From positions 79,910 to 143,909 of the forward strand of contig NZ_LT160636.1 in NCBI RefSeq assembly GCF_900048895.1: a DNA stretch of 64,000 nt, written 5' to 3'. Shown here in pieces: positions 12,635 through 62,876 of the stretch. The position numbers were made by a program, and so were the translations under genes. This DNA comes from Neglectibacter timonensis (GTDB taxonomy: Bacteria > Bacillota > Clostridia > Oscillospirales > Acutalibacteraceae). Positions within the stretch are counted from its first letter, which is position 1, and the number at the start of each line of letters is the position of its first letter. Under the pieces are notes generated by a model that saw only the letters and a program-made list of their open reading frames with translations, was not told where the DNA came from and did not search any database.

Positions 12635-12696
12635 GAAGGGGAAAGGCCGGTCTGGCGGTACGCCGGGCCGCATACGGAAGACGGGAGGAATTGTCA

Positions 12697-21074: not shown

Positions 21075-22685
21075 TTATTCGGGCAAGTCCACCTTGCCAA
21101 CAAAAGAATAATAAATCTCAATGTCCTGTCTGCGGGTCTTGTTCTCGTCATAGCTGCACTCATGCACAACGATTTTCTCTACAAACTCCCGCAGCAGAGT
21201 AGGGGTAAGTTCTTCAAAGCTGGTATGCCGCCGGACAACATTCATAAACTTTTCTGCGTTCACGGTGGCTTCCTGTGCTTTGGAAAGCTCCGCTTGAATA
21301 GCAGCGGCTCTTTCTTTCAGCTCCCGTTGCTCTGCTTCATAGTCTGCCGACAGCTCTGTGAAACGCTCGTCTGATATGCGCCCGGTCACGCTGTCCTCAT
21401 ACAGCCGCTTGAAGATAGCGGATAACTCGGCTATGCGTTTCTCGGAGGCTTCCAGTTCCTTTTTCTTGGCGGCGTTCCTGCGTTTGCCCCCGTCCTCGTT
21501 CTGCTCAATCAAGAGTTTCATAAACCGGGCTTCATGCTTTGCCGCATAGCTGGTCACTTTCCGCAGATTGGAGAGTACACCAGCGGTCAAGAGGTCGGTG
21601 CGGATAAAGTGCGCCGTACAGTCATGGGTGCGTTTCTTGTAGTTGCCGCAGATATAACAGTCCTGCTTGCGCTTGTCCGTCTGGTATCGCTGCTGATACA
21701 TCACGCTGCCGCAGTCCGCACAGAACAGTATGCCGGAGAACAAACCCACTTCATCATAGCGGTTTGGGCGTTTGCGCTGTTTGCGAAGCTCCTGCACCCG
21801 TTCCCATGTTTGGGTGTCTATGATAGGCTCGTGGTGGTTCTCGAAAATCACTTGCTTTTCCGGGGGATTTTCTACACTGTGCTTGACTTTGTAAGAAAGT
21901 TTTTCTGTCTTGAAATTTACCAGACAGCCTGTGTATTCCCGGTTTTCAAGGATATGCACTACGGTATTGGTCGCCCACTTGCACTCATAGCCGGGGTGGT
22001 AGCGGCGGGTGCTGCCCGTCCTGCGGTATTCAAGCGTTCCCGGCGTGGGGATTTGCTGCTCTGTGAGCATACGGGCTATCTTGGTCGGACCATTCCCGGC
22101 AAGACAGAGGTTGTATATCTGCTTGACTACGGGTGCAGCTTCCTCGTCAATAATGAAATTTTCATCCTCGTCCATGAGGTAGCCATACACAGGCTTGCTT
22201 GTGATGGGCTTGCCATTCATGCCTTTTGAGCGTTTTACTGCTTTGATTTTCTTGCTCGTATCTCTCACCAGCCATTCGTTAAAGATATTCCGCAGCGGGG
22301 CAAAGTCATTGTCGCCCTGTGCGCTGTCCACTCCGTCATTGATAGCGATGAAGCGGACACCTTTCTGTGGGAAAATCATTTCCGTGTACATTCCCACTTG
22401 CAGGTAGTTTCGCCCTAACCTCGACATATCCTTTACGATAACTGTCCCGACTTTTCCGGCTTCAATGTCCGCAAGCATGGCTTGAAAACCGGGTCTTTGA
22501 AAGTTCGCACCAGAATAACCGTCGTCCGTGTACCAGCGCAGATTGGAAAAGCCGTTCTGCTTTGCATAGGTTTCAAGGATACGCTTCTGATTGGAAATGG
22601 AATTGCTTTCGCCTTGCAGCTCGTCCTCATGGGATAGTCTTGGGTAAAGGGCGGTAATTGGTTGTTGGTTGGTCTGTCTTAACAT
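21075..22685 (-). CDS. Large serine recombinase, TnpX/TndX type
   Basis: Site-specific recombinase for excision and insertion of the element. The 536 residues show the resolvase catalytic domain (ALYPRLSHEDEL with Ser18 as nucleophile; MSRLGRNYLQVG; DGVDSAQGDNDF), then the recombinase domain (KPVYGYLMDEDENFIIDEEA, in part). A zinc-ribbon follows (CADCGSVMYQ ... CGNYKKRTHDC), then a long coiled coil and a C-terminal tail. The layout is that of Tn4451 TnpX and Tn5397 TndX. It sits at the extreme left end of the element, as expected, and should act on the GA core sites at 20989 and 33069. Confidence 0.93.
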   Translation of the reverse strand: MLRQTNQQPITALYPRLSHEDELQGESNSISNQKRILETYAKQNGFSNLRWYTDDGYSGANFQRPGFQAMLADIEAGKVGTVIVKDMSRLGRNYLQVGMYTEMIFPQKGVRFIAINDGVDSAQGDNDFAPLRNIFNEWLVRDTSKKIKAVKRSKGMNGKPITSKPVYGYLMDEDENFIIDEEAAPVVKQIYNLCLAGNGPTKIARMLTEQQIPTPGTLEYRRTGSTRRYHPGYECKWATNTVVHILENREYTGCLVNFKTEKLSYKVKHSVENPPEKQVIFENHHEPIIDTQTWERVQELRKQRKRPNRYDEVGLFSGILFCADCGSVMYQQRYQTDKRKQDCYICGNYKKRTHDCTAHFIRTDLLTAGVLSNLRKVTSYAAKHEARFMKLLIEQNEDGGKRRNAAKKKELEASEKRIAELSAIFKRLYEDSVTGRISDERFTELSADYEAEQRELKERAAAIQAELSKAQEATVNAEKFMNVVRRHTSFEELTPTLLREFVEKIVVHECSYDENKTRRQDIEIYYSFVGKVDLPE

Positions 22686-29967: not shown

Positions 29968-31887
29968 TTACATTATCTTCTGAAACATATAGCGCACCTT
30001 GTCCAGGCGGCTGTTTGGACGGCGGGGCTGGATGACTGGCTTGCCGACAGCGGCCTGATACCCTTTCAGTTCTGTAAGGCATACGCTCTGCCCGTTGGTG
30101 TAAAAGGCCAGATCAGTACGGTATGCCTGTATACAGCGGGCGGGAATCTCGCCAGTAAAGACAACTTCATCCTTTTTTTCCTGGACCGTTTCGATGGTGG
30201 CACAGTATTTCGGTGCATCATGATAAGCCCTGGAAAGATATTCCCGGGGCGCATAGAGGGTGAAGGAGAGATAAGGTTCCAGCAGTTGCGTCCCTGATTC
30301 CTTCAATGCCTGTTCCAATACAATCGGGGCCAATGAGCGGAAGTCCGCCGGCGTGCTGACCGGACTGTAATAAAGCCCGTATTCAAAGCAAATCTTACAG
30401 TCCGTTACGTTCCAGCCGAACAAGCCCTGCTCCAGCCCGTAACGGATACCATCCCTGACAGCGTTTTGAAAACTCTGGTTCAAGTATCCCAGCGAAACCC
30501 GGCTCTCGTATTGTACACCGGAGCCAAGCGGGAGTGGTGTAACAGACAGTCCGATGGATGCCCAAAACGGGTTGGGCGGCACCTCGATATGGATGGTGTG
30601 GCTGGCTGCTTTGAGCGGCCGCTCCATATAAATGACGGTGGGTTCCTTTACCACTGTTTCAAGCTTGTATTTTTCCGACAGCAAAGCGGAAACAACCTCC
30701 AACTGCACCCGGCCCAAAAAAGAAAGAATGATCTCATGGGTGATGGAATCCACCTCGCAGCGCAAAAGCGGGTCAGTATCCGCAAGTTGCGTAAGAGCGT
30801 CCAGCAGCCGTTCTCTTTGCGCTGCCGTTTTCGGCGCAATCGACGTCCGCAGCATGGGGAGGGGGTCCTCACGCCACCTTTTACGAGGGAGCCGGGTTGG
30901 GTCCCCTAATACATCGTTTAACCTCACGCTGTCGCTGGGAAGGATAACAATTTCACCCGGATAAGCGGTGTCTGTCCGAACAATTTCCCCTTTGGATGGA
31001 ATACGCATCTCTGTGATTTTCAGCTTTTCTCTCCCGGCCAGGGCCACCGTATCCCGCAGGCGCAGCGTTCCGCTGTATAGCCGTAGATAGACACGCCGCT
31101 GGCCGCAATCTGTATACTCCACCTTGAAAACGCTGCCGCATAGGGCGGCGCTCCCCTGTTCCCCAATCGGTTGGAACAGCCCTGTCACCGCATCCATCAA
31201 CGGTTGAATGCCAAGGCCCTTTTTGGCGCTGCCATAATAGACCGGGAACAGGGAGGCGTCTTGAACCCGCCGCTGTTCCTCCCGCACAAGTTTTTCCCGG
31301 CTGATTGGTTCTCCTGCGATATACTTTTCCAATAATTTATCGTTATTTTCGATGACCGCATCCCATGCTTCTATGTCGGTATTTTCCTCCAGGACTATTT
31401 CCGGGGACAGCGACACCGTCTGCTTGATGATAATATCGGCGGAGAGCTTATCCCGAACAGACTGAACCACGCTCTGCAAATCAACGCCAGCCTGGTCGAT
31501 CTTGTTGATAAAGATAACGGTGGGAATGTTCATTTTCCGCAGGGCATGGAACAGAATACGGGTCTGGGCCTGCACGCCATCTTTAGCGGAGATCACCAAG
31601 ATGGCCCCATCTAAAACAGCCAAAGAGCGGTACACCTCCGCCAAAAAATCCATGTGGCCGGGCGTATCCACAATGTTGACTTTACATCTGTGCCACTGGA
31701 AGGAAGTGACTGCCGCTTGAATGGTAATCCCACGCTGCCGCTCCAAAAACATGGTGTCCGTCCTCGTTGTCCCTTTTTCGACGCTCCCCGGTTCTGAAAT
31801 GGCTCCGCTGGCATATAGCAGGCTCTCCGTCAAGGTCGTCTTTCCAGCGTCTACATGGGCAAGAATTCCAATATTGATTATTTTCAT
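29968..31887 (-). CDS. tetW: Tetracycline resistance ribosomal protection protein Tet(W)
   Basis: EF-G-like GTPase that binds the ribosome and dislodges tetracycline. The 639 residues match the Tet(W) length, and the sequence follows Tet(W) closely from [18 protein letters not shown] (G1 loop) through DTPGHMD (G3) and NKID (G4) to the C-terminal [18 protein letters not shown]. It has a few substitutions from the common allele as I remember it. Expression is governed by a leader peptide and attenuator just upstream (31922-31991). It is the only clear resistance gene in the element. Confidence 0.95.
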
Positions 31888-41810: not shown

Positions 41811-43034
41811 TCAGCCCTCCTCCGCCTGTGCCGCGGGCAAAGGGGAGCCTTTCTGTTTCAGCCGGTAGAGGGCGAAGCCCAGAAGCCCGGCGGCGAAGAT
41901 GAGGGAGGCGCAGGTGAACATGACGCCGTAACCGGCGCTGTCCGCCCCGCAGGCCCCCACCATAGCGCCGGCCAGCATGGGGCCCAGCCCCTGGCCCACG
42001 TCCCCGCCGATGTAAAAGGTAGAGGAGGCCACGCCGCTTTTTTCCGGCGGCAGCAGCTTCAGGGAGGCCGCCTGCAGGGTGGGCTGGCCGCTGCCCTGGC
42101 CCATGGCCTTGAGCACCGCCGCCAGGGAGACCATCCACAGCGCCCCCGCACGGCCTAAAAGCAGCAGCGCGGCGCCGTCCAGCAGCATGGCGGGGAACAC
42201 CAGCAGCAGTCCGTTTTTACGGTCAGAGAGCTTTCCCGCCAGAGGCCGCACCAGCAGCAGTACCGCAGCGTTTACAGTGAAATAGAGGCCGATGTTGACG
42301 ATCCCGCGCACGTCCCCCAGCAGGGCTATATAGGAGCCGATGATGCCGTTGCTCATGGAGAACAGGCCGCCCAGCAGGGCCAGGGGCAGCACTTTCAGGG
42401 AGACCAGGTCGTCCAGGCGGATACCTTTCCGGGCGGTTCCCTTGGGCGAAGGGGGTTGGGTGAGGGGGATGAGCAGGGCGAAGCCCGCTGCTGCGAACAG
42501 CAGGATGCCGGAGATGACGTAGGAGAGCCCGAAGCCGAAGGCATCCCCCAGGGAAAGGCCCAGGGAGGGGCCTATGGCGGTGGCGAAAATATTCACCAGG
42601 CCGTAATACCCCACGCCCTCCCCCAGCCTGCTGCGGGGGACCAGGGAGGCAATCATGGTGACGTTTACGGTGCCGCTGAAAGCGAAGGCCACACCGTGCA
42701 GGATGCGGAACGCAATCAGCAGCGGCACTGTGCGGGAGACGGAATAGCCCAGCGCCGCCAAGCCCATGACGCAGGTGGAAAAAATCAGCAGCCTTTTGCG
42801 GTTGACCCTGTCCGCCACCAGACCGCTGAAGGGCCGGGCAACCAGGGCGGTGATGGAGAAGAGTCCGGAAATCACCCCCGCCGCGGCGACGGAGGCGCCC
42901 AGGCCCACCGCGTATTTGGTGATGGTGGGGTTTACCATGTAAAAGCAGGTGGAGGTCATGGTACCCATGGCGATGAGCAGCAGATAGGAGCCCGTCCACA
43001 GCTTTTCTTTTTGTGTTTGAGACTGTTTGCCCAT
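41811..43034 (-). CDS. MFS transporter
   Basis: A 407-residue major facilitator with about twelve membrane segments. The loop-2 motif is seen as GLVADRVNRKRLLIF and its second-half counterpart as GKLSDRKNG. The N-terminus has SYLLLIAMGTM and the centre a charged loop (PSPKGTARKGIRLDD). The family includes drug exporters and sugar or siderophore carriers; the substrate is not readable. ATG at 43034 has only a weak ribosome site. A frame running up to 43325 would overlap the terminator of the next gene and is rejected. Confidence 0.85.
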   Translation of the reverse strand: MGKQSQTQKEKLWTGSYLLLIAMGTMTSTCFYMVNPTITKYAVGLGASVAAAGVISGLFSITALVARPFSGLVADRVNRKRLLIFSTCVMGLAALGYSVSRTVPLLIAFRILHGVAFAFSGTVNVTMIASLVPRSRLGEGVGYYGLVNIFATAIGPSLGLSLGDAFGFGLSYVISGILLFAAAGFALLIPLTQPPSPKGTARKGIRLDDLVSLKVLPLALLGGLFSMSNGIIGSYIALLGDVRGIVNIGLYFTVNAAVLLLVRPLAGKLSDRKNGLLLVFPAMLLDGAALLLLGRAGALWMVSLAAVLKAMGQGSGQPTLQAASLKLLPPEKSGVASSTFYIGGDVGQGLGPMLAGAMVGACGADSAGYGVMFTCASLIFAAGLLGFALYRLKQKGSPLPAAQAEEG

Positions 43035-43121: not shown

Positions 43122-43164
43122 AAAAAAGAGGCCGGACGGCGCAAGCTTTCTTGCACCGTCCGGC
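43122..43164 (-). terminator. Rho-independent terminator of the carboxylesterase gene
   Basis: Leftward-reading stem GCCGGACGGTGCAAG / CTTGCGCCGTCCGGC (arms 43164-43150 and 43145-43131) followed by CTCTTTTTTAAAAG, about 50 bases after the esterase stop. Confidence 0.85.
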
Positions 43165-43212: not shown

Positions 43213-44769
43213 TCAGTGGAGAACGGTGACGTTTTTCTTCGGCGCGAAGGGGTTGGGGGCCACCGGCATGAAGGCCTCATAGAGGGCGTCGTCGAAGTTG
43301 TGCAGGACCTTGCAGTCCCGGTCAAAGATCATGGTAGCCACGTCTCCGGGCTTGCAGGGCGTCCATTCCGGCAGGGAGGGGCAGCTGGGCACGCCGTACC
43401 GGGCGAAGTTTACCCAGGCGGAAGCCATCCTGTCCTCCAGCTGGTCGGATACGCCGGGGATGTTGCAGATGAGCACCTTGTCCGTGTTGTGGAAGAAGAA
43501 GGGGATGTCGGAGCAGTGCCAGGCCGGCTTGCCGTCATCCATGGGAAATTCGTAGGTAAAGAGGTAGTTGTAAGTGGGGGCTTCGGGATGCTCCGCCTTT
43601 TTCAGGGCGAAATCCTTGCTGGGCTTGCGGGAGAAGCCGTCCAGCACCAGCAGGTCGGTGAGGTTCTTTTCCGGATAGCATTCCCGGAACAGCTTCGCCA
43701 GGGTATCGGCAGCGTCTCCGTACTCCTCGCGCAGCATGGCCATCTGCTCTTCCTCGGTGAGGTCGTATTTGTGGGGGACGCCGGGGCCGAAGCCGAACTC
43801 CGCCATCACGGTGCCCACGATGACCGGGATGGTCTTGGCATGGTCTGTAAAGCCCACGCTCCGGGGCTCGCCCAGGTAGAAATCGTTGGGGGTGGGGGCG
43901 CAGCCCACATAGCCGCCCGCCGCCTTGATGGCGGGGCTTACCTTCTTGTAGGCCTCGGCCAGCGCCTCATAGGGCAGGGTTTCCAGCTTTTCAATTTCAT
44001 CCGCGGTGAGGCCCAGCTCCTTGAGCATGCCGTCCACCAAGGGGCGGCTGTCTGTGGAATCGCAGAACATGATGCCGTCGGCCACGCCGCTCATGATGAT
44101 GCCTTTGTGGAACAGGCCGTCCGCCGCGGGAGTCTGCATCAGGGAAGAAACCTTTCCGCCGCCGCCGGACTGGCCAAAAATGGTGACGTTCTCAGGGTCG
44201 CCGCCGAAGGCCGCGATGTTGTCGTGCACCCACTGCAGGGCTGCAACCAGGTCGGCGTTGCCCGCGTTGCCGGAATTCTTGTATTTTTCGCCGTAGGGAG
44301 AGAGGTCCAGATAGCCCAGGATGTTCAGCCGGTGGTTGAGCGTGACCACAACCACGTCTCCGAACTTCGAGAGATTCTCGCCGTCGTAGGCCATCTGCTC
44401 AATGGAGGAGCCCGCGCTGAAGCCGCCGCCGTGCAGCCATACCATGACGGGTTTTTTGGCCTCTTCACAGAGAGACTGGCTCCAGATATTCAGGTACTGG
44501 CAGTTTTCGTCCTTGGGCCAGTAGCGGTGGGGCACCATGATCTCGCCCACAGCGGTTTCTTTGTCCAACATGGGGGAGACATAGCCGTAGGAGAGGGCGT
44601 CTTTCACGCCGTCCCAGGGCTCCACGGGCCGGGGCATCTGGAAACGGTCCGCATCGGCATATTTGATGCCGTGGAAGGTGTAGGTGCCGTCCACACAGAA
44701 GCCGCGCACTTTGCCGGCCTTGGTGGAGACAACGGGTTCGGTGGTGGAGCACACAAATTTCTTTGCCAT
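43213..44769 (-). CDS. Type-B carboxylesterase
   Basis: A 518-residue alpha/beta hydrolase of the carboxylesterase/PnbA family that splits carboxylic esters. HGGGF (113-117) forms the oxyanion hole, GQSGGG has the catalytic Ser201, and the N-terminal FHGIKYADA is the family's usual entry motif. No signal peptide, so cytoplasmic. It has its own terminator. Downstream of a two-component system and near two smaller esterases, it may deacylate imported sugars or phenolic esters, by inference. Confidence 0.9.
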   Translation of the reverse strand: MAKKFVCSTTEPVVSTKAGKVRGFCVDGTYTFHGIKYADADRFQMPRPVEPWDGVKDALSYGYVSPMLDKETAVGEIMVPHRYWPKDENCQYLNIWSQSLCEEAKKPVMVWLHGGGFSAGSSIEQMAYDGENLSKFGDVVVVTLNHRLNILGYLDLSPYGEKYKNSGNAGNADLVAALQWVHDNIAAFGGDPENVTIFGQSGGGGKVSSLMQTPAADGLFHKGIIMSGVADGIMFCDSTDSRPLVDGMLKELGLTADEIEKLETLPYEALAEAYKKVSPAIKAAGGYVGCAPTPNDFYLGEPRSVGFTDHAKTIPVIVGTVMAEFGFGPGVPHKYDLTEEEQMAMLREEYGDAADTLAKLFRECYPEKNLTDLLVLDGFSRKPSKDFALKKAEHPEAPTYNYLFTYEFPMDDGKPAWHCSDIPFFFHNTDKVLICNIPGVSDQLEDRMASAWVNFARYGVPSCPSLPEWTPCKPGDVATMIFDRDCKVLHNFDDALYEAFMPVAPNPFAPKKNVTVLH

Positions 44770-44908
44770 GATTTTTTACTCCTTTTCTCCAAAAGCATAT
44801 TTTTTATAGGTACAGTATAGCGGGCCCCAGGGGGGAACCGCTATAACGCCCGTGCTGTAAATTGGCATTTTTGTGCCGCCGCGCAGGGCGGCCCGGAAGG
44901 AGGCCGCT

Positions 44909-46516
44909 TTATGCGCCGTATGCCTTCCGGTATTCGTTGGGGGCCAGGCCGGTCTTTTTTTTGAAGAGCTTGGAAAAGTAGGAAAAATTGGAATAACCCG
45001 CCTTCACGGCGATGATGCTGACCGGGTAGGAAGTGGTGGAGAGCAGGTTTTGGGCCAGCTCAATTTTCCGGTTGGTGATGTAGTCCGCCAGGGGTTCCCC
45101 TGTCTCCTTGCTGAACAGGTGGGAAACGTAGCTTTCCGACAGGTAAACCTGTTCGGCCAGCTCCTTCCGGGTTAAATCCAGGTCCAGGTGGGCGTTGATG
45201 TACTCCTTGAGCTGGTTTACCAAGGCGTGCTCGGTGCTGCCCTGAAGCAGGGGCAGCGTCTTGTTGTATTCCAAAAGGGCGTCGAACCAGGCGCGCAGGT
45301 CGTCCGCGGAATTTCTGGCCCGGACCAGCAGGGCCAGGTAATTGTTGGTGGTGTAGATGTCCCCCTCCTTCACGTTGCGCATCCGCAGCGAGGCGAAAAA
45401 GGCCCCCATGATCTGCTGGTAGAAAAAGAAGAGCACATTGGCGGAAACGCCCGGGGTGCGGCCGATCTTTTCCAGGCAGCTTTCCAGCTCCTCCCGCAGC
45501 TTGCCGTCCTCCCCGTGGGAGAAAAAGCGGATCCAGCTTTCAAAGTCGGTGTAGGGGGCCAGCATGGCGCTGAGCCGCTCCACCTCCTCCCTGGGCGGAC
45601 GGGGATGTTCGGGAAAGACAATGCCGCGCACGAAGGGGTCCGATTCCTCGAAGGCCCGCAGCTTCCGGTACTGTTTGTCCAGCCCGTTGAGGGGGACGGC
45701 GCTGCTGGCCAGGCAGCTGCAGTGGATGGAGAGGCTTTGGGCGCAGGCGTCCAGCCACAGCTTCAGGGTCTCGTACAGCCTGCTGTTCTGCTGCTCGCGC
45801 ATGACCGCCAGCAGATGGATGTCGTCCAGCTGCAGAAAGAACACGTTGTCCGTCTCCCCCGCAAGCTCCGCGCACTGGGAAAACAGGGCGCAGATGTTGT
45901 TGATGGCGCTCTCCGTGTCCCACCGGCCCAGGGAGACATGCTCATCCTTCACCGTGAGCAGGACCAGCATGTATTTTTTCCGGACGTCCGCCGGGATGCC
46001 CAGCAGCAGGATATCTTTGGCGATGCTTTCCAGCCTTTTATTGCTCTCGGTGAGGATCAGGTTCGTCCAGAAATGCCGCACCAGGACCTCCCGGTTTTCG
46101 ATGACCGCAGTGCCGATTTCCGAAAGCCCTCGGTTTTCCCGTTCGTTGTAGATGTGGTTCATCAGCCGTTTCAGGCTCAGCTCCAGCTCCCGGTAATCGA
46201 TGGGCTGCACCAGGTATTCGAAGCTGCCCAGCTTCAGGGCGGTCTGGGCGTAGTCGAACACCGCGTGGGAGGTGAGGAAGATCCCTTCGGTGCGGGGATA
46301 GTTCTCCCGCACCCAGCGGAAGAGCTCCAGCCCGTTTTCAATGGGCATTTCAATATCGCAGACCAGGATATCCACGGCCTGCGCCTGGAACCATTCCTTT
46401 GCCTGCAGCGCGGAATTGGCTGTCAGCACCTCCGGAGAGCCCAGGGCTTTCCAGTCCACCCCGGCCAGGATGCCGTCCAGCACACTTTGCTGATCGTCAA
46501 CCAGCAGCAGTACCAT
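44909..46516 (-). CDS. YesN-type response regulator with AraC domain
   Basis: A 535-residue regulator. Residues 1-120 form a receiver with Asp54 (LVCDIEMP) and the conserved Lys region near LKLGSFEYLVQP. A long middle region follows. The C-terminal AraC HTH pair is KELAEQVYLSESYVSHLFSK and SIIAVKAGYSNFSYFSKLFK. The start overlaps the end of the kinase gene, so both are made together. The YesM/YesN type usually controls an adjacent sugar ABC importer, here the divergent operon at 48654. Confidence 0.92.
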   Translation of the reverse strand: MVLLLVDDQQSVLDGILAGVDWKALGSPEVLTANSALQAKEWFQAQAVDILVCDIEMPIENGLELFRWVRENYPRTEGIFLTSHAVFDYAQTALKLGSFEYLVQPIDYRELELSLKRLMNHIYNERENRGLSEIGTAVIENREVLVRHFWTNLILTESNKRLESIAKDILLLGIPADVRKKYMLVLLTVKDEHVSLGRWDTESAINNICALFSQCAELAGETDNVFFLQLDDIHLLAVMREQQNSRLYETLKLWLDACAQSLSIHCSCLASSAVPLNGLDKQYRKLRAFEESDPFVRGIVFPEHPRPPREEVERLSAMLAPYTDFESWIRFFSHGEDGKLREELESCLEKIGRTPGVSANVLFFFYQQIMGAFFASLRMRNVKEGDIYTTNNYLALLVRARNSADDLRAWFDALLEYNKTLPLLQGSTEHALVNQLKEYINAHLDLDLTRKELAEQVYLSESYVSHLFSKETGEPLADYITNRKIELAQNLLSTTSYPVSIIAVKAGYSNFSYFSKLFKKKTGLAPNEYRKAYGA

Positions 46517-48215
46517 TTGCAGTTTCCTCCTTTTTGCTGTTGACGGGCAGGAAAATTTCCGACACCGCGCCGTCTTTGTTGCTGAGAATAAAGTAGGCAC
46601 GTTCCCCGTAAATCAGGGAAAGCCGCGCCCTGAGGTTGAAAAGGCCGATGTGCCCCTTCAGCCGCCCCGCGTCCTCGGCGTAAAAATCCTCCAGCAGCTG
46701 TTCCGGGTATCCGGCGCCGTTGTCGGCCACCTGGATGTGGAGATAGCTCTCCCCATCCAGGTCCTCCAGGCGGATCGCAATGGAGATCCGCAGGGTCCTG
46801 CCGTATACGGGGGCGTATTTGATGGAATTCTCCACAAAGGTCTGCAGGATCAGGGAAGGCACCTCAACCTGGGACAGGCCGCTCTCCGCGGAAAGGGTCA
46901 CATGGATGGGGAAGCCCTTGCCGATTTTCTGGATATTCACATAATTCTGGGTGTGGGTGAGCTCCTCCCCCAGAGGGATCATGGCGGTCAGGTCGTAGGC
47001 GATATACTGGAACTGCTCCGAAAGGCTCAGCAGCATTTTCTGAATCTCCTCATTTTTGCCGTTCTGGGCCAGGCCGTACAGGGATTTCAGGGAGTTCAGG
47101 TAAAAATGGGGCTTGAGCTGCAGCTGATAGTACTGTAACCGGTACTGCTGCTTTTGCAGCTCCTCCTCGTAAAAGCGGATGCGCAGCTCCTTGATCTCCT
47201 CGGTCATGCTGTCGAAGGTGTCGTATACCTGCTGGATTTCCCTGGCCGCCCCGCTGCCGGAGCGCCACTCATAGGCGCTGTTGCGCAGGGAAAGGATGTT
47301 CCCCCGCAGGTCCTTCAGGGGTTTTGTGACCCGCCAGTGCAGGAACAGCAAGGTAAAGGCCACGGAAAACGCCGAGAGCAGGATCAGGCCCCAGAAAACG
47401 GCCTGAGAAAAACGGAGGTCTGAGATGAGGGAGGCGGAGGAGACGGCGCAGACCAGGATGGCGGGCAGGGTGTCAAACGGATGCTCCACCGTAAGATAGC
47501 TGTCTGCGGGAAAAAGGAAAAAGGGGCTGTCTCCGGCGTCGTCCAGGGACAGGAGCTGCTCTTCCGCCACGCCGCCTATCTCCGTGATAGGGACGCCGTC
47601 CGGACCGGCAAAATACACCAGCTGATTGGCCGAGGGGGCAAGAACATCCTGAGCCAGGCTGCCGCCCAGCAGAACCGCCTTGCCGATATAGACGCCCCCG
47701 CCGCCCACAATCCTTGCCAAAACCCAGCTGTCCCCGGCGGGTTCCAGAAGCCAGCCGGAGGTGTCAAAGCTTTCCTGGGACTGAAGGGCTGTGAAAAAGG
47801 AGCTGTAGCGCATGCTGCGCTTATCCTCTGCGGAAATGTCCTGGCCCATGGAGAAATAAAACTGCCTGCCGTCGTAGACAAAGGAGACGCCCGCGCTGCC
47901 TGCGGCCACGGAGAGGTCCTGGGATAGGCTGTAGGCGTAATGGTACCGCTCCTCCGGGGTGGCGGCGTTTTTCAGGTACCGCACGTCGATGCTGTTGATG
48001 TAGAGGGCGGCCAGCCCGTTCTCAATATCCCGGAAGCTCTCTTCAAAAACAGCCGCAGCGGAGTCGATGCTCATGCGGTAGGACTCTTCCGTCTTTTCAA
48101 AGATGCTGCGGATGGAATGGTTGCTGAAAACAATGAACATCAGGTCCACCGGGATAATGGAGACCAGCAGGCAGAGGATGACGGAGGTACGGATGGAAAA
48201 GGTTCTTTTTTTCAT
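46497..48215 (-). CDS. YesM-type sensor histidine kinase
   Basis: A 572-residue membrane kinase. A first membrane segment lies at about 9-31, an extracytoplasmic sensor at about 32-270, a second membrane segment at 272-293, then HAMP (RVTKPLKDL), a coiled coil, the phospho-acceptor His370 in LKPHFYLNSL, and an ATPase domain with ENSIKYAP and DNGAGYP. It senses an outside ligand, probably a sugar or its binding protein. ATG at 48215 follows AAAGGAGG. It is divergent from the importer operon, with a 440-bp control region between. Confidence 0.93.
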   Translation of the reverse strand: MKKRTFSIRTSVILCLLVSIIPVDLMFIVFSNHSIRSIFEKTEESYRMSIDSAAAVFEESFRDIENGLAALYINSIDVRYLKNAATPEERYHYAYSLSQDLSVAAGSAGVSFVYDGRQFYFSMGQDISAEDKRSMRYSSFFTALQSQESFDTSGWLLEPAGDSWVLARIVGGGGVYIGKAVLLGGSLAQDVLAPSANQLVYFAGPDGVPITEIGGVAEEQLLSLDDAGDSPFFLFPADSYLTVEHPFDTLPAILVCAVSSASLISDLRFSQAVFWGLILLSAFSVAFTLLFLHWRVTKPLKDLRGNILSLRNSAYEWRSGSGAAREIQQVYDTFDSMTEEIKELRIRFYEEELQKQQYRLQYYQLQLKPHFYLNSLKSLYGLAQNGKNEEIQKMLLSLSEQFQYIAYDLTAMIPLGEELTHTQNYVNIQKIGKGFPIHVTLSAESGLSQVEVPSLILQTFVENSIKYAPVYGRTLRISIAIRLEDLDGESYLHIQVADNGAGYPEQLLEDFYAEDAGRLKGHIGLFNLRARLSLIYGERAYFILSNKDGAVSEIFLPVNSKKEETANGTAAG

Positions 48216-48653
48216 ATGAGAGCCTCCTTTCAAGACGTGATTTACAGAAGAGAAGGACAGGCCTTCCGTACCCCTGTCCCACGTCCGTGATTCAACCTGA
48301 TACCACACCTGCGGTGGGCGGGCCGCGCTCCACAGCTCTTGGGAGATTCCGGCCTTCTGCCCGTGCCGCAGGCTTCAGTGGCTGTTATAACCATACCTGC
48401 GGTGGGCGGGCCGCGCATCTCAATCTCTTCGGTTCTTCAGTTCGCCGTACGCGTCTCAAGTTATTTTATCATTATACCATAAAATTGCAAAAAGTGGTGA
48501 GAAAATAAGGCGACAGTACCAAAATTAGGAGAAACACGAAAGTGCAAATTGAAAGCACGGCAGTTATAGCCCCGGACCCGGGAAAGCTGGTACTCTTTAG
48601 GCAGGAACACGGCGGCAGCACAGCCGCCGGAGAAAATGGAGGGAAGAAAATTG
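48216..48653. promoter_or_regulatory. Divergent control region with 26-bp direct repeats
   Basis: About 440 bp between the kinase and binding-protein genes. It holds CCACACCTGCGGTGGGCGGG plus CCGCGC (48303-48328) and the same 26 bases with one change at 48391-48416, 88 bp apart. AraC-type regulators often bind direct repeats, so these are candidate sites for the neighbouring response regulator. An AT-rich stretch at 48465-48500 probably holds the rightward promoter. Confidence 0.55.
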
Positions 48654-50240
48654 ATGAAACAAGCAAAGGGAAAAAGGCTTTTGGCGGCTCTGCTGGCGTT
48701 GGCGATGTTCGTTGGGCTGACAGCCTGCGGCGGCCCGTCTGAAAAGACCAGTTCACCGGGGAATGACAGTTCCGAAAAGAGCGCTGCGGAAAGCGGTTCG
48801 AAAGCGGAGAGCTCGGAAGCGTCCGCCGGAACCAACGCTGACCCGGTCACCATCGACATGCTGCTTGTCAGCGATGGCAACAGCAAGGATAAGGAACAGC
48901 AGGTGGAGGACGCCATCAACGCCATCCTGGAGCCTGCCCTCAACACCACCGTGAAATTTATGATGGTCTCCTACGCCGACCATACGGAGAAAATCAACCT
49001 GGTGCTGGCCTCCGGCGACAAGCTGGACCTGTATGAGCCCTTCCAAAGCTACGACAATTTCTATGCCAACGGCTATATGATGGACATCAGCGGCTACGGC
49101 GAGTATTACAAGGACATTGCGGAGCTTTTGGGCGAGGGGTACATGGAGTGCGCCCAGATCGACGGTGTGCAGTACGGCCTGCCCTCCCTGAAGGATCTGG
49201 CCCAGGATACCTGCGTCATCTTCCGCACAGACGCGCTGGAGGCGGTCAACGCGGATGTGAACGACATTAAAAATTTCGACGATCTCCACGATGTACTGGT
49301 GAAGCTGAAGGAAGCCTATCCCGACATCACCCCCCTGATGGGCGGTTCCCAGGGTTCTGCGCTGGGAAATCTCAGAGGAGATTTTGACAACAACCAAATG
49401 GCTGACATCCTGGGCAATGGCCTGGGCGTGCTGATGGATCCTGTGAACAGCACGGAGGTTACCGACTATTACCAGAGCAAATCCTACGAGCAGCTCTGCA
49501 ATTACATGTACGCCTGGAAGCAGGAGGGCCTGTTGGACCGGGATTCCCTCACCTCCGGCCTGGACCTGATGCGTGCGGGAAAATCCCTGTGCTCCGGCTA
49601 CGCGCTCTCCCCCAAGGCCACTGCGGAAGCCGGCACAAGCGCCGGAAGCGACGTGACGGCCTGGAAGGTCTATGTGGACGCCAATCCCCTGGCCATGACC
49701 TCCAACGCCTGGACCTGGTGTGTGAACTCCAACTGCGAGACGCCGGAGCGGGCCCTGGAAATGCTGAACTTCATGTACACCAACAAGGAAATCCAGAACC
49801 TGCTTGCCTGGGGTATTGAGGGCGAGGATTACCAGGTCATCAGCGACGAGGGCGTCGGCGTCATCGATTATATGGAAGGACAGGATTCCGGCACGGTCAA
49901 CTACTACCAGTGGACCAAGTACTCCTTCCCCAACAACTTCCTGCAGTACGTGATGAAGGGCACCAACCCCCACCAGTGGGAAGAAATGGACGAATGGAAC
50001 AAATCCGCGGATATCTCCCTGGCCATGGGCTTCAACTTTGACGCCACCAACGTGACCACCCAGATCGCGGCGTGCACCAACGTGGTCAATGAATACAACA
50101 ACGCGCTGACAGGCGGCGAGTTGGATCCTGCCGTGGCGCTTCCCGAGTTCATCCAGAAGCTGAAGAGCGCGGGCATCGACGAGATCGTGAAAGAAAAACA
50201 GACCCAGCTGGACCAGTGGCTTGAAGCCAAAAAGAAATAA
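48654..50240 (+). CDS. ABC sugar transporter substrate-binding lipoprotein
   Basis: A 528-residue extracellular solute-binding protein of the LplA-like type. The signal peptide ends with lipobox LTAC (near residue 23) followed by Gly. A Ser/Glu-rich linker leads to the two-lobed domain (TIDMLLVSDGNSKDKEQQVE in part; NAWTWCVNSNCETPERALEM). It captures an oligosaccharide or related compound and hands it to the two permeases encoded next. ATG at 48654 is ten bases after GGAGGG. An ATPase gene is absent, as usual for this class, which shares one MsmX-type ATPase. Confidence 0.9.
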   Translation: MKQAKGKRLLAALLALAMFVGLTACGGPSEKTSSPGNDSSEKSAAESGSKAESSEASAGTNADPVTIDMLLVSDGNSKDKEQQVEDAINAILEPALNTTVKFMMVSYADHTEKINLVLASGDKLDLYEPFQSYDNFYANGYMMDISGYGEYYKDIAELLGEGYMECAQIDGVQYGLPSLKDLAQDTCVIFRTDALEAVNADVNDIKNFDDLHDVLVKLKEAYPDITPLMGGSQGSALGNLRGDFDNNQMADILGNGLGVLMDPVNSTEVTDYYQSKSYEQLCNYMYAWKQEGLLDRDSLTSGLDLMRAGKSLCSGYALSPKATAEAGTSAGSDVTAWKVYVDANPLAMTSNAWTWCVNSNCETPERALEMLNFMYTNKEIQNLLAWGIEGEDYQVISDEGVGVIDYMEGQDSGTVNYYQWTKYSFPNNFLQYVMKGTNPHQWEEMDEWNKSADISLAMGFNFDATNVTTQIAACTNVVNEYNNALTGGELDPAVALPEFIQKLKSAGIDEIVKEKQTQLDQWLEAKKK

Positions 50241-50318
50241 AACGGCAGGAAGCCCCGCGGGCACAACCCGGCGCGTGTTTGTGCCCGCGGACTTTCGCAG
50301 AGCGGGAGGAAACGGCCC

Positions 50319-51257
50319 ATGGCAAGTATGGGAAAAACAAAAAAGCTGAAAAAGAAGAGGGATTGGAAGCATTTTATCCCCTATTATCTCATGGGCCTGC
50401 CCATGGTGATCTATTTGTTCATCAACAACTATATGCCCCTGTACGGCCTGCTGTTTGCCTTTAAGGATGTGAACATGCGCAAGGGCGTGATGGGGAGCCC
50501 CTGGGTCGGCCTGAAAAACTTTGAGTTCCTGTTCCGGACGGACGACGCTTTTATCATGACCCGCAACACCGTCCTGTACAATCTGGCGTTCCTGGTTTTG
50601 GGGCCTGTGCTGGGCATCACCGTGGCCATCTGCCTCAATTCCATCAAGGGAGGCAGAAGCTCTAAAATCTACCAGACGTCGATTCTGCTGCCCCACCTGA
50701 TGAGCATGGTGGTGGTCAGCTACATCGTCTACGCGTTCCTCGACCAGAATTCCGGCATTTTCAACGCCCTGCTGACGGCCTTCGGCGGGGAGGGCGTGAA
50801 CTGGTACGCGGACGCGGGCAAGTGGCCCTTTATCCTGATCTTTGTCAACCAATGGTACAGTATCGGCTTCAGCTCCATCATCTACCTGTCCTCCATCTGC
50901 GGCATTAGCCAGGAATACTATGAGGCGGCGGAGCTGGACGGGGCCAGCAAATGGCAGCAGATCACCCAGATCACCCTGCCGCTGCTCAAGGGCACCATCA
51001 TCATGATGACGATTATGGGATTGGGCCGCATGTTCCGTTCGGATTTCGGACTGTTCTACCAGGTGCCCATGAACACCGGCGCGCTGTACTCCACCACTCA
51101 GACCATCGACACCTATGTGTTCCGGGGGCTGATGCAGCTGGGCAACTTCGGCATGTCGGCGGCGGCGGGCTTCTACCAGTCCATTGTGGGCTTTATCCTG
51201 GTGGTAACCGCCAATACGGTCATCAAAAAAATAAGCGCGGAAGACGCGCTGTTTTAA
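50319..51257 (+). CDS. ABC sugar transporter permease (LplB/YteP type)
   Basis: A 312-residue membrane subunit with about six membrane segments and a long polar N-terminus. The ATPase-contact EAA loop is EYYEAAELDGASKWQQITQI. The N-terminal segment PYYLMGLPMVIYLFINNYMP and the following FKDVN stretch are typical of the LplB group. It forms the channel with the next permease. It starts 78 bp after the binding-protein gene. Confidence 0.92.
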   Translation: MASMGKTKKLKKKRDWKHFIPYYLMGLPMVIYLFINNYMPLYGLLFAFKDVNMRKGVMGSPWVGLKNFEFLFRTDDAFIMTRNTVLYNLAFLVLGPVLGITVAICLNSIKGGRSSKIYQTSILLPHLMSMVVVSYIVYAFLDQNSGIFNALLTAFGGEGVNWYADAGKWPFILIFVNQWYSIGFSSIIYLSSICGISQEYYEAAELDGASKWQQITQITLPLLKGTIIMMTIMGLGRMFRSDFGLFYQVPMNTGALYSTTQTIDTYVFRGLMQLGNFGMSAAAGFYQSIVGFILVVTANTVIKKISAEDALF

Positions 51258-51269
51258 GGGGGGAGAGGT

Positions 51270-52157
51270 ATGGTCAATTCGAAATCAGCCAGACGCATGA
51301 ACGGGGTCTCCCATACGGTGCTGTTCCTTCTGACCTTTCTGGCGCTGGTGCCGTTCCTGATCCTCATCTCCTCCTCCTTTTCCGAGGATACGCAGATCAT
51401 CAAATACGGCTATTCCATGTTCCCCCGGGGCTTCAGTATGGACGCCTACGGGTATATCCTCACAAACTTTTCCGTCATCGGCCGGGCCTACGGCGTCACC
51501 ATAGCGGTGACGGTGATCGGCACCGCGGCCAGCCTGATCATCACCAACCTGGGCGCCTACATGCTGTCCCAGGACGACCTTCCCGGGGTGAAGGTGCTGA
51601 TGTTCCTGGTGGTGTTCACCATGCTGTTTTCCGGCGGGCTGGTGCCTACCTACTACATCTACACCCAGGTGTTCCACCTGAAGGATACCCTCTGGTGCCT
51701 GATTGTCCCCAACCTGCTGCTCAACGCGTTCAACATCATCCTCATCCGGAACTATTACCGGTTCAGCATCCCAAAGGCGATTGTGGAATCCGCCCGCATC
51801 GACGGCGCGGGGGAGTTTACCACCTTTGTGCGGATTGTATTCCCCCTGTCCCTGCCCATCACCGCCACAGTGGGGCTGCTCACCGCCATCATGTTCTGGA
51901 ACGACTGGCAGAACGGCCTGTATTACCTCACCGGCACCGAATGGTATTCCATTCAGCAGGTGCTGCGGGTCATGTCCTCCCAGATCACCTTCCTGTCAAA
52001 CGGCACCGACTCCACCCAGGGAGTCAACCGGGATATCCCCACCACCACAATCCGTATGGCCATTGCCGTGGTGGCAATCGCCCCCATCCTCATCGCCTAC
52101 CCGTTTTTCCAAAAATATTTCGTCAAGGGGATTACGCTGGGCGCTGTGAAGGAGTAA
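51270..52157 (+). CDS. ABC sugar transporter permease (YtcP type)
   Basis: A 295-residue carbohydrate permease with about six membrane segments. The EAA loop is VESARIDGAGEFTTFVRIV. The ending YPFFQKYFVKGITLGAVKE is the hallmark of this family. It starts 12 bp after the first permease and pairs with it. Confidence 0.93.
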   Translation: MVNSKSARRMNGVSHTVLFLLTFLALVPFLILISSSFSEDTQIIKYGYSMFPRGFSMDAYGYILTNFSVIGRAYGVTIAVTVIGTAASLIITNLGAYMLSQDDLPGVKVLMFLVVFTMLFSGGLVPTYYIYTQVFHLKDTLWCLIVPNLLLNAFNIILIRNYYRFSIPKAIVESARIDGAGEFTTFVRIVFPLSLPITATVGLLTAIMFWNDWQNGLYYLTGTEWYSIQQVLRVMSSQITFLSNGTDSTQGVNRDIPTTTIRMAIAVVAIAPILIAYPFFQKYFVKGITLGAVKE

Positions 52158-52232
52158 ACTGGATACAAGGACGGCCCGCTTTCCTGCGGGCCCCCTTTTG
52201 TCACAATCATTTTTTTGGAGGAGAGTATCAGT

Positions 52233-53099
52233 ATGGTAGTAAAATTCAATTTTCTTTCGAAATATCTGGGCATGCAGACCAACGTCACCATGTGCCTTCC
52301 CAGCTTTTCCTTTGCCGACGTCATGAGCGACCGCAAAGAGGTCTATGTGCAGGGCATGAAGTACCAGACCCTGTACCTGCTGCACGGCGGCAGCGGGGAC
52401 GATTCGGATTACGTGAACTTTTCCAATATCGTCCGGTATGCGGACGACCACAAGCTGGCCGTGGTGATGCCCTGCGACTACAACGGGGAATACACCGACG
52501 TGCCCAAGGGCCCGAAATACCTGAAATACATCATGGAGGAGCTGATCCCCCTGACAAGGGCGTTTTTCCCGCTGTCGGACAAACGGGAGGACACCTTCGT
52601 AGGCGGCCTGAGCATGGGCGCCGCGGGGGCTATGAAAATTGCCCTCACTTACCCGGAGCTGTTTTCGGCAGCGCTGATCATGTCGGGCGCTGCAAGGCAT
52701 CCGGACACCCTGAAGCCGGGTTCCCCCTATGCCATGCCGAAAATGGCGCTGGGGCGCGATGAGGAGGATCCGGACGCCATGCCCATGCCCAACCTGTCGG
52801 ACATTTACGGCACCTGGGAGGAGTTCGCGGCAAGCAGACACAACGCCTACCTGACGGCGGAAAACGACGTGAAAGAGGGAAAGCCCCTGCCGGAATTCTT
52901 CTTCGCCTGCGGGCTGGACGACTTTGCCCTGCCCAGATGCCGCCTGGGCTACGAAGAACTGAAGAAGCTGGGCTTTAAGGCCAGCATGCTGGAGCTGCCC
53001 GGCTATAAGCACGAATGGGATTTCTGGGACCTCATCCTCAGGAAGGCCATTGGAGAATGGCTGCCCGTCCGGCACAGCGCCATCTATCCGGGAGAATAA
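52233..53099 (+). CDS. Esterase, alpha/beta hydrolase (first of two paralogues)
   Basis: A 288-residue cytoplasmic hydrolase of the tributyrin-esterase/S-formylglutathione-hydrolase-like group. The oxyanion stretch is LLHGGSGDDSDY, the nucleophile Ser127 is in GGLSMGA, and a late His is in PGYKHEWDFW. It follows the permease genes and is very probably in the same operon, so it should act on the imported compound, for instance removing acetyl groups. ATG at 52233 follows GGAGGAG. It is paralogous to the next gene. Confidence 0.87.
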   Translation: MVVKFNFLSKYLGMQTNVTMCLPSFSFADVMSDRKEVYVQGMKYQTLYLLHGGSGDDSDYVNFSNIVRYADDHKLAVVMPCDYNGEYTDVPKGPKYLKYIMEELIPLTRAFFPLSDKREDTFVGGLSMGAAGAMKIALTYPELFSAALIMSGAARHPDTLKPGSPYAMPKMALGRDEEDPDAMPMPNLSDIYGTWEEFAASRHNAYLTAENDVKEGKPLPEFFFACGLDDFALPRCRLGYEELKKLGFKASMLELPGYKHEWDFWDLILRKAIGEWLPVRHSAIYPGE

Positions 53100-53159
53100 C
53101 CCTCTGCGGGGCGGTTTCTTCCGTCCCGGCGGGATAACTAAGAAAAGGGGAGATATTAC

Positions 53160-53981
53160 ATGGCATGTTTTGAACTGAGCTTAAAATCCGAAGCGTTGGG
53201 CGGTCAGACCAGTATCAGCGTCATCCTGCCCATTTTTGAAGGCTTTGACCGGGAAATCCCGGAGGGGGAGAAATTCCAGACCCTGTGGCTTCTGCATGGG
53301 GGTGGCGGGGACCATACCGATTATGTGCGCAAAACGGCCATTGAGTTCTGGGCGGTGAAGCATAAGCTGGCGGTGATCATGCCGGAGGTGGGGAACAGCT
53401 TTTACACAGACCTGCCCAACGGCGGGGCGAAGTACTTCACCTATGTGACCGAGGAGCTGCCCGCCCTGCTGCGCAAATATTTCCCGCTGTCTGAGAAGCG
53501 GGAGGACAACTTTATCTGCGGCCTTTCCATGGGCGGATTCGGCGCGGCGAAATGCGCCTTTAACTGTCCGGAGAAATACGCGGCGGTGGGGCTGATGTCC
53601 ACAGGGCCCATGAGCCCTCTGCAGCTGGCGGAGATCCTCAAGGACCGCGACCATCATTTCGAAAACATTTTTGGGGACGTGAGCCTGATCCCCCACTCCA
53701 TGAACGATATCTGGTATGTGCTGGAGGAGGCCGTGAAAAACGGGGGGGACCTGCCCAAAATCTACGATTGCTGCGGCACGGAGGATTTCGGTTACAGCGG
53801 GTTCTGCGCTTTTAAAGAGAAGGCAAAGGAAATCGGCCTGGAGGTGACCTATGCGGAGGGACCCGGGGCGCACACCTGGAGCTTCTGGAACGAATACCTG
53901 CCGAAGATCATCGACTGGCTGCCCCTGCGGGACAGGAATTTTGAGGAAAACTGCATGCGGAAAAGATTTGCCGCCAATTGA
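53160..53981 (+). CDS. Esterase, alpha/beta hydrolase (second paralogue)
   Basis: A 273-residue relative of the upstream esterase; the two share LWLLHGGGGDHTDY-like, FPLSEKRED and GLSMGG blocks. Ser123 is the nucleophile and the His is in GAHTWSFWNEYLP. It probably has a different acyl or position preference. It starts 60 bp after the first esterase and ends at a strong terminator, closing the importer-esterase operon. Confidence 0.87.
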   Translation: MACFELSLKSEALGGQTSISVILPIFEGFDREIPEGEKFQTLWLLHGGGGDHTDYVRKTAIEFWAVKHKLAVIMPEVGNSFYTDLPNGGAKYFTYVTEELPALLRKYFPLSEKREDNFICGLSMGGFGAAKCAFNCPEKYAAVGLMSTGPMSPLQLAEILKDRDHHFENIFGDVSLIPHSMNDIWYVLEEAVKNGGDLPKIYDCCGTEDFGYSGFCAFKEKAKEIGLEVTYAEGPGAHTWSFWNEYLPKIIDWLPLRDRNFEENCMRKRFAAN

Positions 53982-61400: not shown

Positions 61401-62876
61401 ATGAGCAGGGTCATTGTCAACGCGTTGGAAAAGAAAAGCAAAATCAGCAAAAATATCTACGGCCATTTTTCGGAGCATCTGGGCAGGTGTATCTACAACG
61501 GCCTGTATGTGGGGGAGGGGTCGCCCATCCCCAATGTAAACGGCATGAGGACGGACCTGGTGGAGGCCCTGAAGAATATCAGGGTGCCGGTGCTGCGCTG
61601 GCCCGGCGGCTGTTTTGCCGACGAATACCACTGGAAGGACGGCATCGGCCCCAAAGAGGGCAGAAAGCGCATGGTGAACACCCATTGGGGCGGCGTGGTG
61701 GAGGACAATTCCTTCGGCACCCATGAGTTCCTGGAATTCTGCCGCCAGGTAGGCTGCGAGCCTTATGTCAACGGCAACGTGGGTTCCGGCACGGTGCAGG
61801 AGATGAGCGAATGGATGGAGTATATGACCTTTGACGGCGTGTCCCCCATGGCGGAGCTTCGGAAACAAAACGGCCGGGAGGAGCCCTGGAAGGTAAAATA
61901 TTTCGGAGTGGGCAACGAAAACTGGGGCTGCGGCGGCAATATGCGGCCGGAATACTATGCGGACGAGTTCCGGCGGTACCAGACCTATGTGAGGGATTAC
62001 GGGGAAAACAAGGTGTATAAGATCGCCTGCGGTCCCAACGGGGCGGATTATGACTGGACGGACAAGGTAATGGAGATTGCCGGGGCGTATATGGACGCCC
62101 TGACGCTGCACTATTACACGGTGCCCACCGGAAAGTGGCAGGACAAGGGCGCGGCCACCGGGTTTCCGAAGGAGGAGTATTACGCCACCCTGAAGAAGGC
62201 CCTGCGCATGGAAGAACTGGTGAGAAAGCATGCGCAGATCATGGAGCGCCATGACCCCGCCCACAGGGTGGGACTGATTGTGGACGAATGGGGGACCTGG
62301 TACAATGTGGAGCCCGGCACCAACCCCGGCTTTTTGTACCAGCAGAATACCATGCGGGACGCCATGGTGGCGGCCCTGACCCTGAATATCTTCAACGCCC
62401 ACAGCGACCGGGTGGTGATGGCGAACCTGGCGCAGATGGTGAACGTGCTGCAGGCGGTGATCCTGACGGAGGGGGAAAAGCTGGTGCTCACGCCCACGTA
62501 TCACGTGTTCGACCTTTACAAGCATCATCAGGACGCTGTGCTGCTGGGCAGCTACGCGGAGACGGGGTTTGTGGGCACAGAAGGAGATTTGGTGCCGGAC
62601 CTGAGCGTGTCCGCTTCGGAGGACGGGTCGGGTGTGATCCATGTGACGCTGGCGAATACGGATGCGGAAAAGCCCCGCCCCGTGGAGCTGACGCTGGAAG
62701 GCAGGACGTGCGCCGGGGCGGAAGGCCGTATCCTTTCCGGAAACATGGGCGATTATAACGACTTCGGCGCACAGGACAAGGTGCAGCCCCGGGCATTTTC
62801 AGAGTTCACTGCGGAAAAAGGCGGAATCGCCTTCACGATGCCCGCCTGCTCTGTGCTGGAACTGACCCTCTCCTGA
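61401..62876 (+). CDS. abfA: GH51 alpha-L-arabinofuranosidase
   Basis: Retaining enzyme that frees arabinose from arabinan or arabinoxylan oligosaccharides. The 491 residues show [18 protein letters not shown], the acid/base Glu173 in GNENWG, and the nucleophile Glu296 in VDEWGTW. A C-terminal beta domain follows. No signal peptide, so it works on imported oligosaccharides. It is followed at once by a DUF6171 gene and a sugar kinase, which together suggest an arabinose-use operon. Confidence 0.95.

Follow-up and report, generated by a model that had tools for sequence, protein, structure and literature searches.

A gene cluster of Neglectibacter timonensis (positions 43213-53981 of the 64,000-nucleotide stretch analysed here, called the window) brings together a two-component system, an Lpl-type importer and three esterases, and is probably, if by no means certainly, a locus dedicated to the import and subsequent deacylation of an esterified ligand. 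In this process, a YesM-like kinase would sense an external ligand, and a YesN-like regulator would activate two promoters through a shared 36-bp element, turning on both the importer operon (the solute-binding protein or SBP, LplB, LplC, Est1 and Est2) and the gene of a type-B carboxylesterase. The SBP would capture a carbohydrate bearing ester groups; the permeases, powered by an ATPase encoded elsewhere, would carry it into the cytosol, where Est1, Est2 and the type-B enzyme would strip acyl groups of different positions or kinds. The freed sugar would then enter metabolism or be trimmed by glycosidases encoded elsewhere, and the acid set free, or some by-product, may leave the cell through an MFS protein.

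All of the genes that an earlier note on this DNA had named for the span were located with the ORF list and a Pfam scan. The minus strand carries, in order of transcription, a YesM-type sensor kinase (46497-48215; PF06580 and PF02518), a YesN-type response regulator (44909-46516; PF00072 receiver and PF12833 AraC helix-turn-helix) and the type-B carboxylesterase of 518 aa (43213-44769; PF00135 at E = 9e-83, PDB match 5a2g). Divergent from these, the plus strand encodes the SBP, a lipoprotein of the DUF3502 family (48636-50240; PF12010 and PF01547, with an LTAC lipobox), an LplB-type permease (50319-51257) and an LplC/YtcP-type permease (51270-52157), both matching PF00528, the EstA-like esterase Est1 (52233-53099; PF00756, scanned from 52215, and 4rgy at E = 8e-41) and its paralogue Est2 (53160-53981; PF00756, 4rgy at E = 5e-62 and 2uz0 at E = 5e-34). 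An alternative start of the SBP is possible at the ATG at 48654. The adjacent sensor kinase and AraC-type response regulator, and the DUF3502/SBP_bac_1 lipoprotein with two BPD_transp_1 permeases, are what defines an Lpl-type importer with its YesM/YesN pair. Neither a glycoside hydrolase nor an ATPase gene occurs among the genes of 43213-53981. In the part of the window proteins that was scanned, two glycosidases were confirmed: an alpha-galactosidase (12691-13854), about 29 kb before the span, and an alpha-L-arabinofuranosidase (61401-62876), 7.4 kb after it. Rfam at gathering thresholds gave no match in the window.

Est1 and Est2 are 39% identical over 273 aligned positions, and both have the GxSxG, Asp and His that, with PF00756, mark the EstA-like family: GLSMG at 125-129, the Asp of GLDDF and His260 in Est1, and GLSMG at 121-125, the Asp of GTEDF and His238 in Est2. 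Ser, Asp and His are in register with those of the PDB matches 4rgy, 6vh9, 2uz0 and 4rot; 2uz0 is EstA (tributyrin esterase) of Streptococcus pneumoniae, and 6vh9 is FphF of Staphylococcus aureus. The nucleophile motif of type-B carboxylesterases is usually GESAG; the third enzyme has GQSGG (199-203), together with a Glu in GTVMAEF and a His in WHCSD, and with its PF00135 domain and these catalytic Ser, Glu and His residues it belongs to the type-B carboxylesterases. Its best PDB match, 5a2g (E = 1.8e-196, nearly full length), aligns GQSGG, Glu and His; this is the Hungatella hathewayi esterase of the polyester hydrolase literature, an enzyme reportedly shown to hydrolyse polyester. Judged by hydrophobicity alone, no esterase has an N-terminus as hydrophobic as that of the SBP, which suggests that all three are cytosolic. 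The inventory of the earlier note (a YesM/YesN pair, an Lpl-type importer, two paralogous esterases and one of type B next to the regulator genes, with no glycoside hydrolase) is thus borne out, the type-B gene lying in the divergent unit downstream of YesM-YesN.

A comparison of the upstream regions of the units of the locus revealed the 36-bp element. One copy precedes the importer operon (48535-48570, plus strand) and the other the type-B gene (44840-44875, minus strand). They are identical at 29 of 36 positions, and 20 bases past each lies a -10-like hexamer (TACTCT at 48591-48596, plus strand, on the SBP side; TATACT at 44814-44819, minus strand, on the type-B side). The alignment score of 37 was not reached by any shuffle in sets of 2000 and 1000 (highest 28) or by any of 2949 random pieces of the window (highest 28); although the element is a selected result, the best of 14 upstream pairs in one comparison and of 10 in another, no null came near its score. 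A 28-base core, expressed in IUPAC code and allowed up to 3 mismatches, has two matches in the 3.67-Mb genome, both at this locus, and the reversed control pattern has none in the whole genome at the same threshold. Because the pattern was built from the two sites themselves, the genome search shows only the absence of a third site at up to 3 mismatches, so that no glycosidase gene carries the element at that threshold. With up to 7 mismatches in 1,078,149 bases of fetched loci (overlapping), just two further matches turned up, both with 7 mismatches (L027 and L028), and none fell in the stretches around relatives of the type-B enzyme (L081-L083).

The regions upstream of Est1, the MFS gene, YesN and YesM gave no match to the SBP upstream region comparable to the element; the best of the four, that of the MFS gene, had a score reached by 10 of 1000 shuffles. 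An element shared by esterase and importer was also sought at three other loci (L073, L057 and L015), with none comparable seen, and the same holds for the SBP upstream regions of the window and of the related locus in genome G419 described below. The simplest reading of the element is that it is a YesN operator through which the importer operon and the type-B gene are both controlled, and the presence of one site before an importer unit and an esterase unit points to joint activation of the importer with at least one esterase. Co-regulation of the esterases had been proposed as a check on the deacylation idea; run in part, that check favors the idea for the type-B gene, which shares the element with the importer.

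The genes from the SBP to Est2 are co-directional, with intergenic gaps of 78, 12, 75 and 60 bases, in keeping with the claim that they form one unit. What speaks against a single unit is a terminator-like hairpin between LplC and Est1 (52173-52192, plus strand; 7 G-C pairs, then CCCTTTTGTC), possibly an attenuator. A hairpin scan of the region gave 17 terminator-like sites versus 14.1 in shuffles, so that this hairpin must be considered weak. The hairpin 3' of the type-B gene (43131-43164, minus strand) resembles an intrinsic terminator, with 15 pairs, 11 of them G-C, followed by CTCTTTTTTA. Within the divergent promoter region there is also a 22-bp exact direct repeat (48307 and 48395) that was considered as an operator; it was dropped as a dispersed repeat because a genome search allowing up to 3 mismatches gave 16 matches, several of them paired 87-90 bases apart.

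Much of this gene set recurs elsewhere. G419, a genome from the same class but a different family, has on a contig identical in sequence to JAAYNF010000004.1 a single run that comprises YesN and YesM (both on the minus strand), SBP, LplB, LplC, a 193-aa ORF, a type-B esterase and an MFS protein, with identities to the window of 48% for the SBP, 62% for LplB, 60% for LplC, 38% for the type-B enzyme and 53% for the MFS protein. The 193-aa ORF has no Pfam hit and, by eye, looks like the start of an alpha/beta hydrolase. At 38% identity, and with no firm place in the type-B tree, the G419 esterase gene may be of another lineage than that of the window. The LplB tree joins the window with G419 (98/89), and then with L057 (98/94), a locus whose type-B gene is accompanied by an Abhydrolase_10 protein and by a protein that, on a weak Pfam match, may be glycosidase-like. 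The same ten-row LplB clade, the order of whose groups is not settled by the tree, also includes another group, L058, L059 and L060, which has pectate-lyase-like, GH43 and GH35-like, and GH39 genes.

A second locus in the N. timonensis genome itself (L073, contig C13, 614-625 kb) assembles genes for an EstA-like protein, YesN, YesM, LplB, LplC, SBP, a type-B esterase (47% identical to that of the window), an MFS protein (35%) and an amidohydrolase. Its LplB falls in a different clade from that of the window, and its importer is only distantly related. The EstA-like protein of this locus has lost the nucleophile Ser, with Ala in its place (GYAMG), and a second SBP-side EstA-like copy on C13 (288 kb) has Gly at the nucleophile position. 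Two congeners have partial sets: in G022 (L077) there are a type-B gene (48%), an S15 hydrolase, and YesN, EstA-like and LplC homologues, and in G009 (L075) SBP, MFS, YesM and YesN homologues accompany a PF00756 protein and a beta-lactamase-family protein.

The MFS gene (41811-43034, minus strand; PF07690, scanned from a longer ORF) lies outside the span first described. Its product matches EmrB weakly in the PDB (E about 3e-7) and by this weak similarity may be efflux-like; its best match outside itself is the G419 protein. In the Lpl-importer loci of G419 and L073, the MFS homologue directly follows the type-B esterase, and this recurrence of the pair makes the MFS gene probably a member of the set. 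A survey of six genomes found 13 MFS matches, all of whose neighbourhoods were read: 6 are near an Lpl-type permease or a DUF3502-type SBP (the window, L029, L073, L075, L076 and L086) and 7 are not near importers (L080, L087 and L093-L097). For the type-B enzyme, 12 neighbourhoods out of 18 matches were read, of which 5 include importer genes (the window, L029, L057, L073 and L077) and 7 do not (L078, L079 and L081-L085). Lists of longest ORFs hide some real genes (for example, the type-B gene in L082), and neighbourhoods were counted by tblastn; this count added the importer case L077, and the weak MFS match of L096 fell below its cut-offs.

The closest relatives of two of the esterases are found away from importers. 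The type-B enzyme is 75% identical to a protein in G005, 72% to one in G020 and 68% to one on contig C14 of the same genome, and Est1 is 71% and 68% identical to proteins in G020 and G005; tblastn detected no importer homologues in about 20 kb around these relatives of Est1 or in 17-18 kb around those of the type-B enzyme. The Est1 relatives in G020 and G005 adjoin a transporter that looks MATE-like by eye. Across the other 28 genomes from the genus, Est2 finds no better match than 42%. The importer-free relatives in congeners suggest that Est1 and the type-B enzyme predate the link with the importer and were probably recruited into the locus; both may be of broad specificity. Neither these relatives nor the MFS partner figured in the earlier note.

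Across the N. timonensis genome, esterase genes are enriched near SBP genes. Among 10 EstA-like genes (11 rows, two of which belong to a single gene), 6 have a match to the SBP no more than 6 kb away, in stretches that make up 7.9% of the genome (P 4e-5), or 4 of 8 when tandem pairs are counted once (P 0.002); for type-B genes the count is 3 of 6 rows (P 0.008). With the window, which was chosen for this very feature, left out, the EstA-like counts become 4/8 (P 0.002) and, with tandems counted once, 3/7 (P 0.014), and that of type-B genes 2/5 (P 0.05). These counts use the best 25 of 32 SBP rows, 7 weaker ones having been dropped; with all 32 rows at 6 kb, the values are 6/10 for EstA-like (P 1.6e-4) and 3/6 for type-B genes (P 0.017). 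At 3 kb, 5 of 10 EstA-like genes remain, and the single type-B gene of 6 is not significant.

The nearest solved structures to the SBP by sequence are 5swa, 5mlt and 5suo (E 4e-33 to 1e-32), the closest being the N-glycan binder NgtS, at low similarity. This likeness suggests a carbohydrate ligand, but it is common to many paralogues, the SBP family having many members in this genome. HMMER pairs the stacking Trp386 of NgtS (numbering by eye) with Trp426 of the SBP across a gap; the ungapped partner is Tyr429, a position that is not telling because 12 of the 13 closest SBP rows, the window included, have an aromatic residue there. An AlphaFold prediction of the SBP from two sequences had a pLDDT of 33. 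The SBP is rare, with only G419 matching outside its own genome at the cut-offs used. Searches of overlapping genome sets, each counting its own genome, returned only the SBP itself at 1e-120 in 40 relatives, itself and G419 at 1e-95 among 391 genomes from the class, itself alone at 1e-95 among 394 genomes from the order (the top 3 candidates of each genome being scored in both cases), and itself with one paralogue at 1e-85 in 200 genomes of the family (top 7). In a plasmid search all matches were below 60% identity.

What the importer carries is a matter on which several readings compete. The idea that the substrate is deacylated after uptake stands as far as import followed by cytosolic de-esterification is concerned, which the catalytic residues, the N-termini and the likeness to EstA support; nothing points in particular to the xylo- or manno-oligosaccharides, or to the phenolic esters, also envisaged, and the earlier interpretation as a whole is partly supported, the operator-like element and the MFS partner extending it. 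Acetylated oligosaccharides, with glycosidases acting in trans, are a possible but tentative substrate. The same modest degree of belief attaches to a more specific proposal, namely that the locus serves acetylated hemicellulose oligosaccharides (xylo-, manno- or arabinoxylo-) in the manner of the xua cluster of Ruminiclostridium cellulolyticum, with glycosidases encoded elsewhere and not tied to YesN; this is the original idea made specific, and a special case of import followed by deacylation. In xua and in a mannan locus of Roseburia alike, an ABC importer is accompanied by two acetyl esterases in the portions of their accounts available, an arabinofuranosidase gene does lie downstream of the present span, and several other importer loci of this genome (L058-L060, L062, L064, L065 and L068) have glycosidase or lyase-type neighbours in a scan of 20 chosen proteins from this and two related genomes. 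Set against these points, the element does not occur a third time in the genome when up to 3 mismatches are allowed, both described loci keep their glycosidases in the cluster, according to the same portions, and no xylan- or mannan-specific marker was seen here. A rather doubtful further possibility is that the regulon is complete in itself and serves small acylated sugars or esters of a similar kind, which would be sensed and imported, which three ester hydrolases would fully open and whose acid the MFS protein would export, with no glycosidase needed; the type-B and MFS genes would then be a movable "deacylate and expel" cassette, joined to importers of different ancestry in the window, G419 and L073.

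It is unlikely that there is no pathway at all and that broad-specificity esterases have drifted beside a common type of importer whose sugar carries no acyl group. Such drift would fit the finding that congeners have close relatives of Est1 and of the type-B enzyme at sites without an importer. It would also fit the hairpin before Est1 and the identity of 5a2g, the solved structure nearest to the type-B enzyme: this is the Hungatella hathewayi esterase, which a review, in the part available, lists among polyester hydrolases (PMC12504347). Drift would not account for an element common to the importer and type-B promoters and absent (at up to 7 mismatches) around the type-B relatives, for almost the same gene set in G419, which is of a different family, for its reappearance with a distantly related importer, or for the enrichment of EstA-like genes near SBP matches even without the window. 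Scavenging of host glycans, in which O-acetylated fragments (sialylated or N-glycan-like) would be imported and then deacetylated, is very improbable. It draws on the binding of Man5GlcNAc by NgtS and on the activity of pneumococcal EstA on acetylated mucin (PMC5352144), each as given in the available part of its description; yet the similarity to NgtS is low within an SBP family of many members in this genome, the Trp386 match is either gapped or at a commonly aromatic position, and the locus has no sialidase or other host-glycan enzyme.

The favored reading, a locus for import followed by deacylation, matters because it is mostly by their glycosidases that uptake loci are interpreted. A regulon with esterases as its sole enzymes, if this is what the locus is, would point to esterified small carbohydrates as a class of nutrients overlooked by glycosidase-based annotation, and the link to 5a2g, a polyesterase, hints at a natural role for that group of enzymes.

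A literature search found no paper on such a locus, and xua came up as related. The xua cluster has 13 genes, including four glycoside hydrolases, and two esterases that lack a signal peptide and have acetyl esterase activity, one of them of the ESTHER A85-esteraseD-FGH family, as stated in the part of the report available (PMC9675976). Shared with the present locus, on the same partial basis, are a two-component system with an AraC-family regulator, an SBP and two permeases without an ATPase, and at least two esterases without a signal peptide (judged here by hydrophobicity alone) beside the importer; the differences are the three esterases and absent glycosidase here, and the lack of a type-B esterase or MFS gene in xua as there described (PMC9675976). 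The mannan locus of Roseburia intestinalis likewise combines an ABC importer with intracellular esterases, there two acetyl esterases that act jointly on imported oligosaccharides, but it differs in its SGNH-type esterases, LacI-type regulator, glycosidases and phosphorylases, by the portion of the account at hand (PMC6385246). Because the glycosidases of both are absent here, the present locus would work in a similar way but is not counted among such loci. NgtS, whose family by sequence includes the SBP of the window (E about 1e-33), is the SBP of the pneumococcal N-glycan importer and binds Man5GlcNAc; its pathway, unlike the present locus, has glycosidases such as EndoD, as described in the accessible part of that work (PMC5215778). 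Pneumococcal EstA, in the sections available, is not mentioned as part of an importer operon; it deacetylates acetylated xylan and mucin, has a specificity for short acyl chains and is mainly intracellular, with activity in supernatants as well (PMC5352144). Est1 and Est2 are homologues of EstA and FphF, all of them short esterases in which GxSxG, Asp and His align.

Lpl-type importers are expanded in the N. timonensis genome (3.67 Mb), in which a search with the DUF3502 solute-binding lipoprotein of the window's importer locus returned 32 match rows and in which EstA-like (PF00756) esterase genes number 10. Some of these importers adjoin glycosidases or lyases, and others adjoin ester hydrolases. 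A second type of ester-catabolic importer locus is perhaps represented at 636-645 kb of contig C13, where AtuA, a 3-hydroxyacyl-CoA dehydrogenase and an S15-family hydrolase that we take to be CocE-like are encoded (fetched loci L070:13148-15788 and L015:2757-9202) near genes for an EstA-like protein and for a permease of the Lpl type. An S15 hydrolase also adjoins a type-B (PF00135) carboxylesterase gene in the congener G022 (locus L077).

Two EstA-like proteins encoded on C13 have lost the nucleophile serine, which is replaced by alanine in one (L073:4252-5139, at 614 kb) and by glycine in the other (L014:7949-8737, at 288 kb). Both adjoin importer or solute-binding protein genes, and they are possibly non-catalytic binding proteins.

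The 27-bp direct repeat in the window (48302-48328 and 48390-48416, copies 88 bases apart) is a dispersed paired repeat: its 22-bp core has 16 genome-wide matches with up to 3 mismatches, several of them in pairs spaced by 87-90 bases. Elsewhere in the window, a mobile element is probable where a gene for an EF-G-like GTPase (29968-31887), which as judged by eye resembles the tetracycline ribosomal-protection proteins, adjoins DNA whose G+C content is low (0.40 at 28-30 kb); a recombinase-like ORF, read by eye, occurs at 21075-22685.
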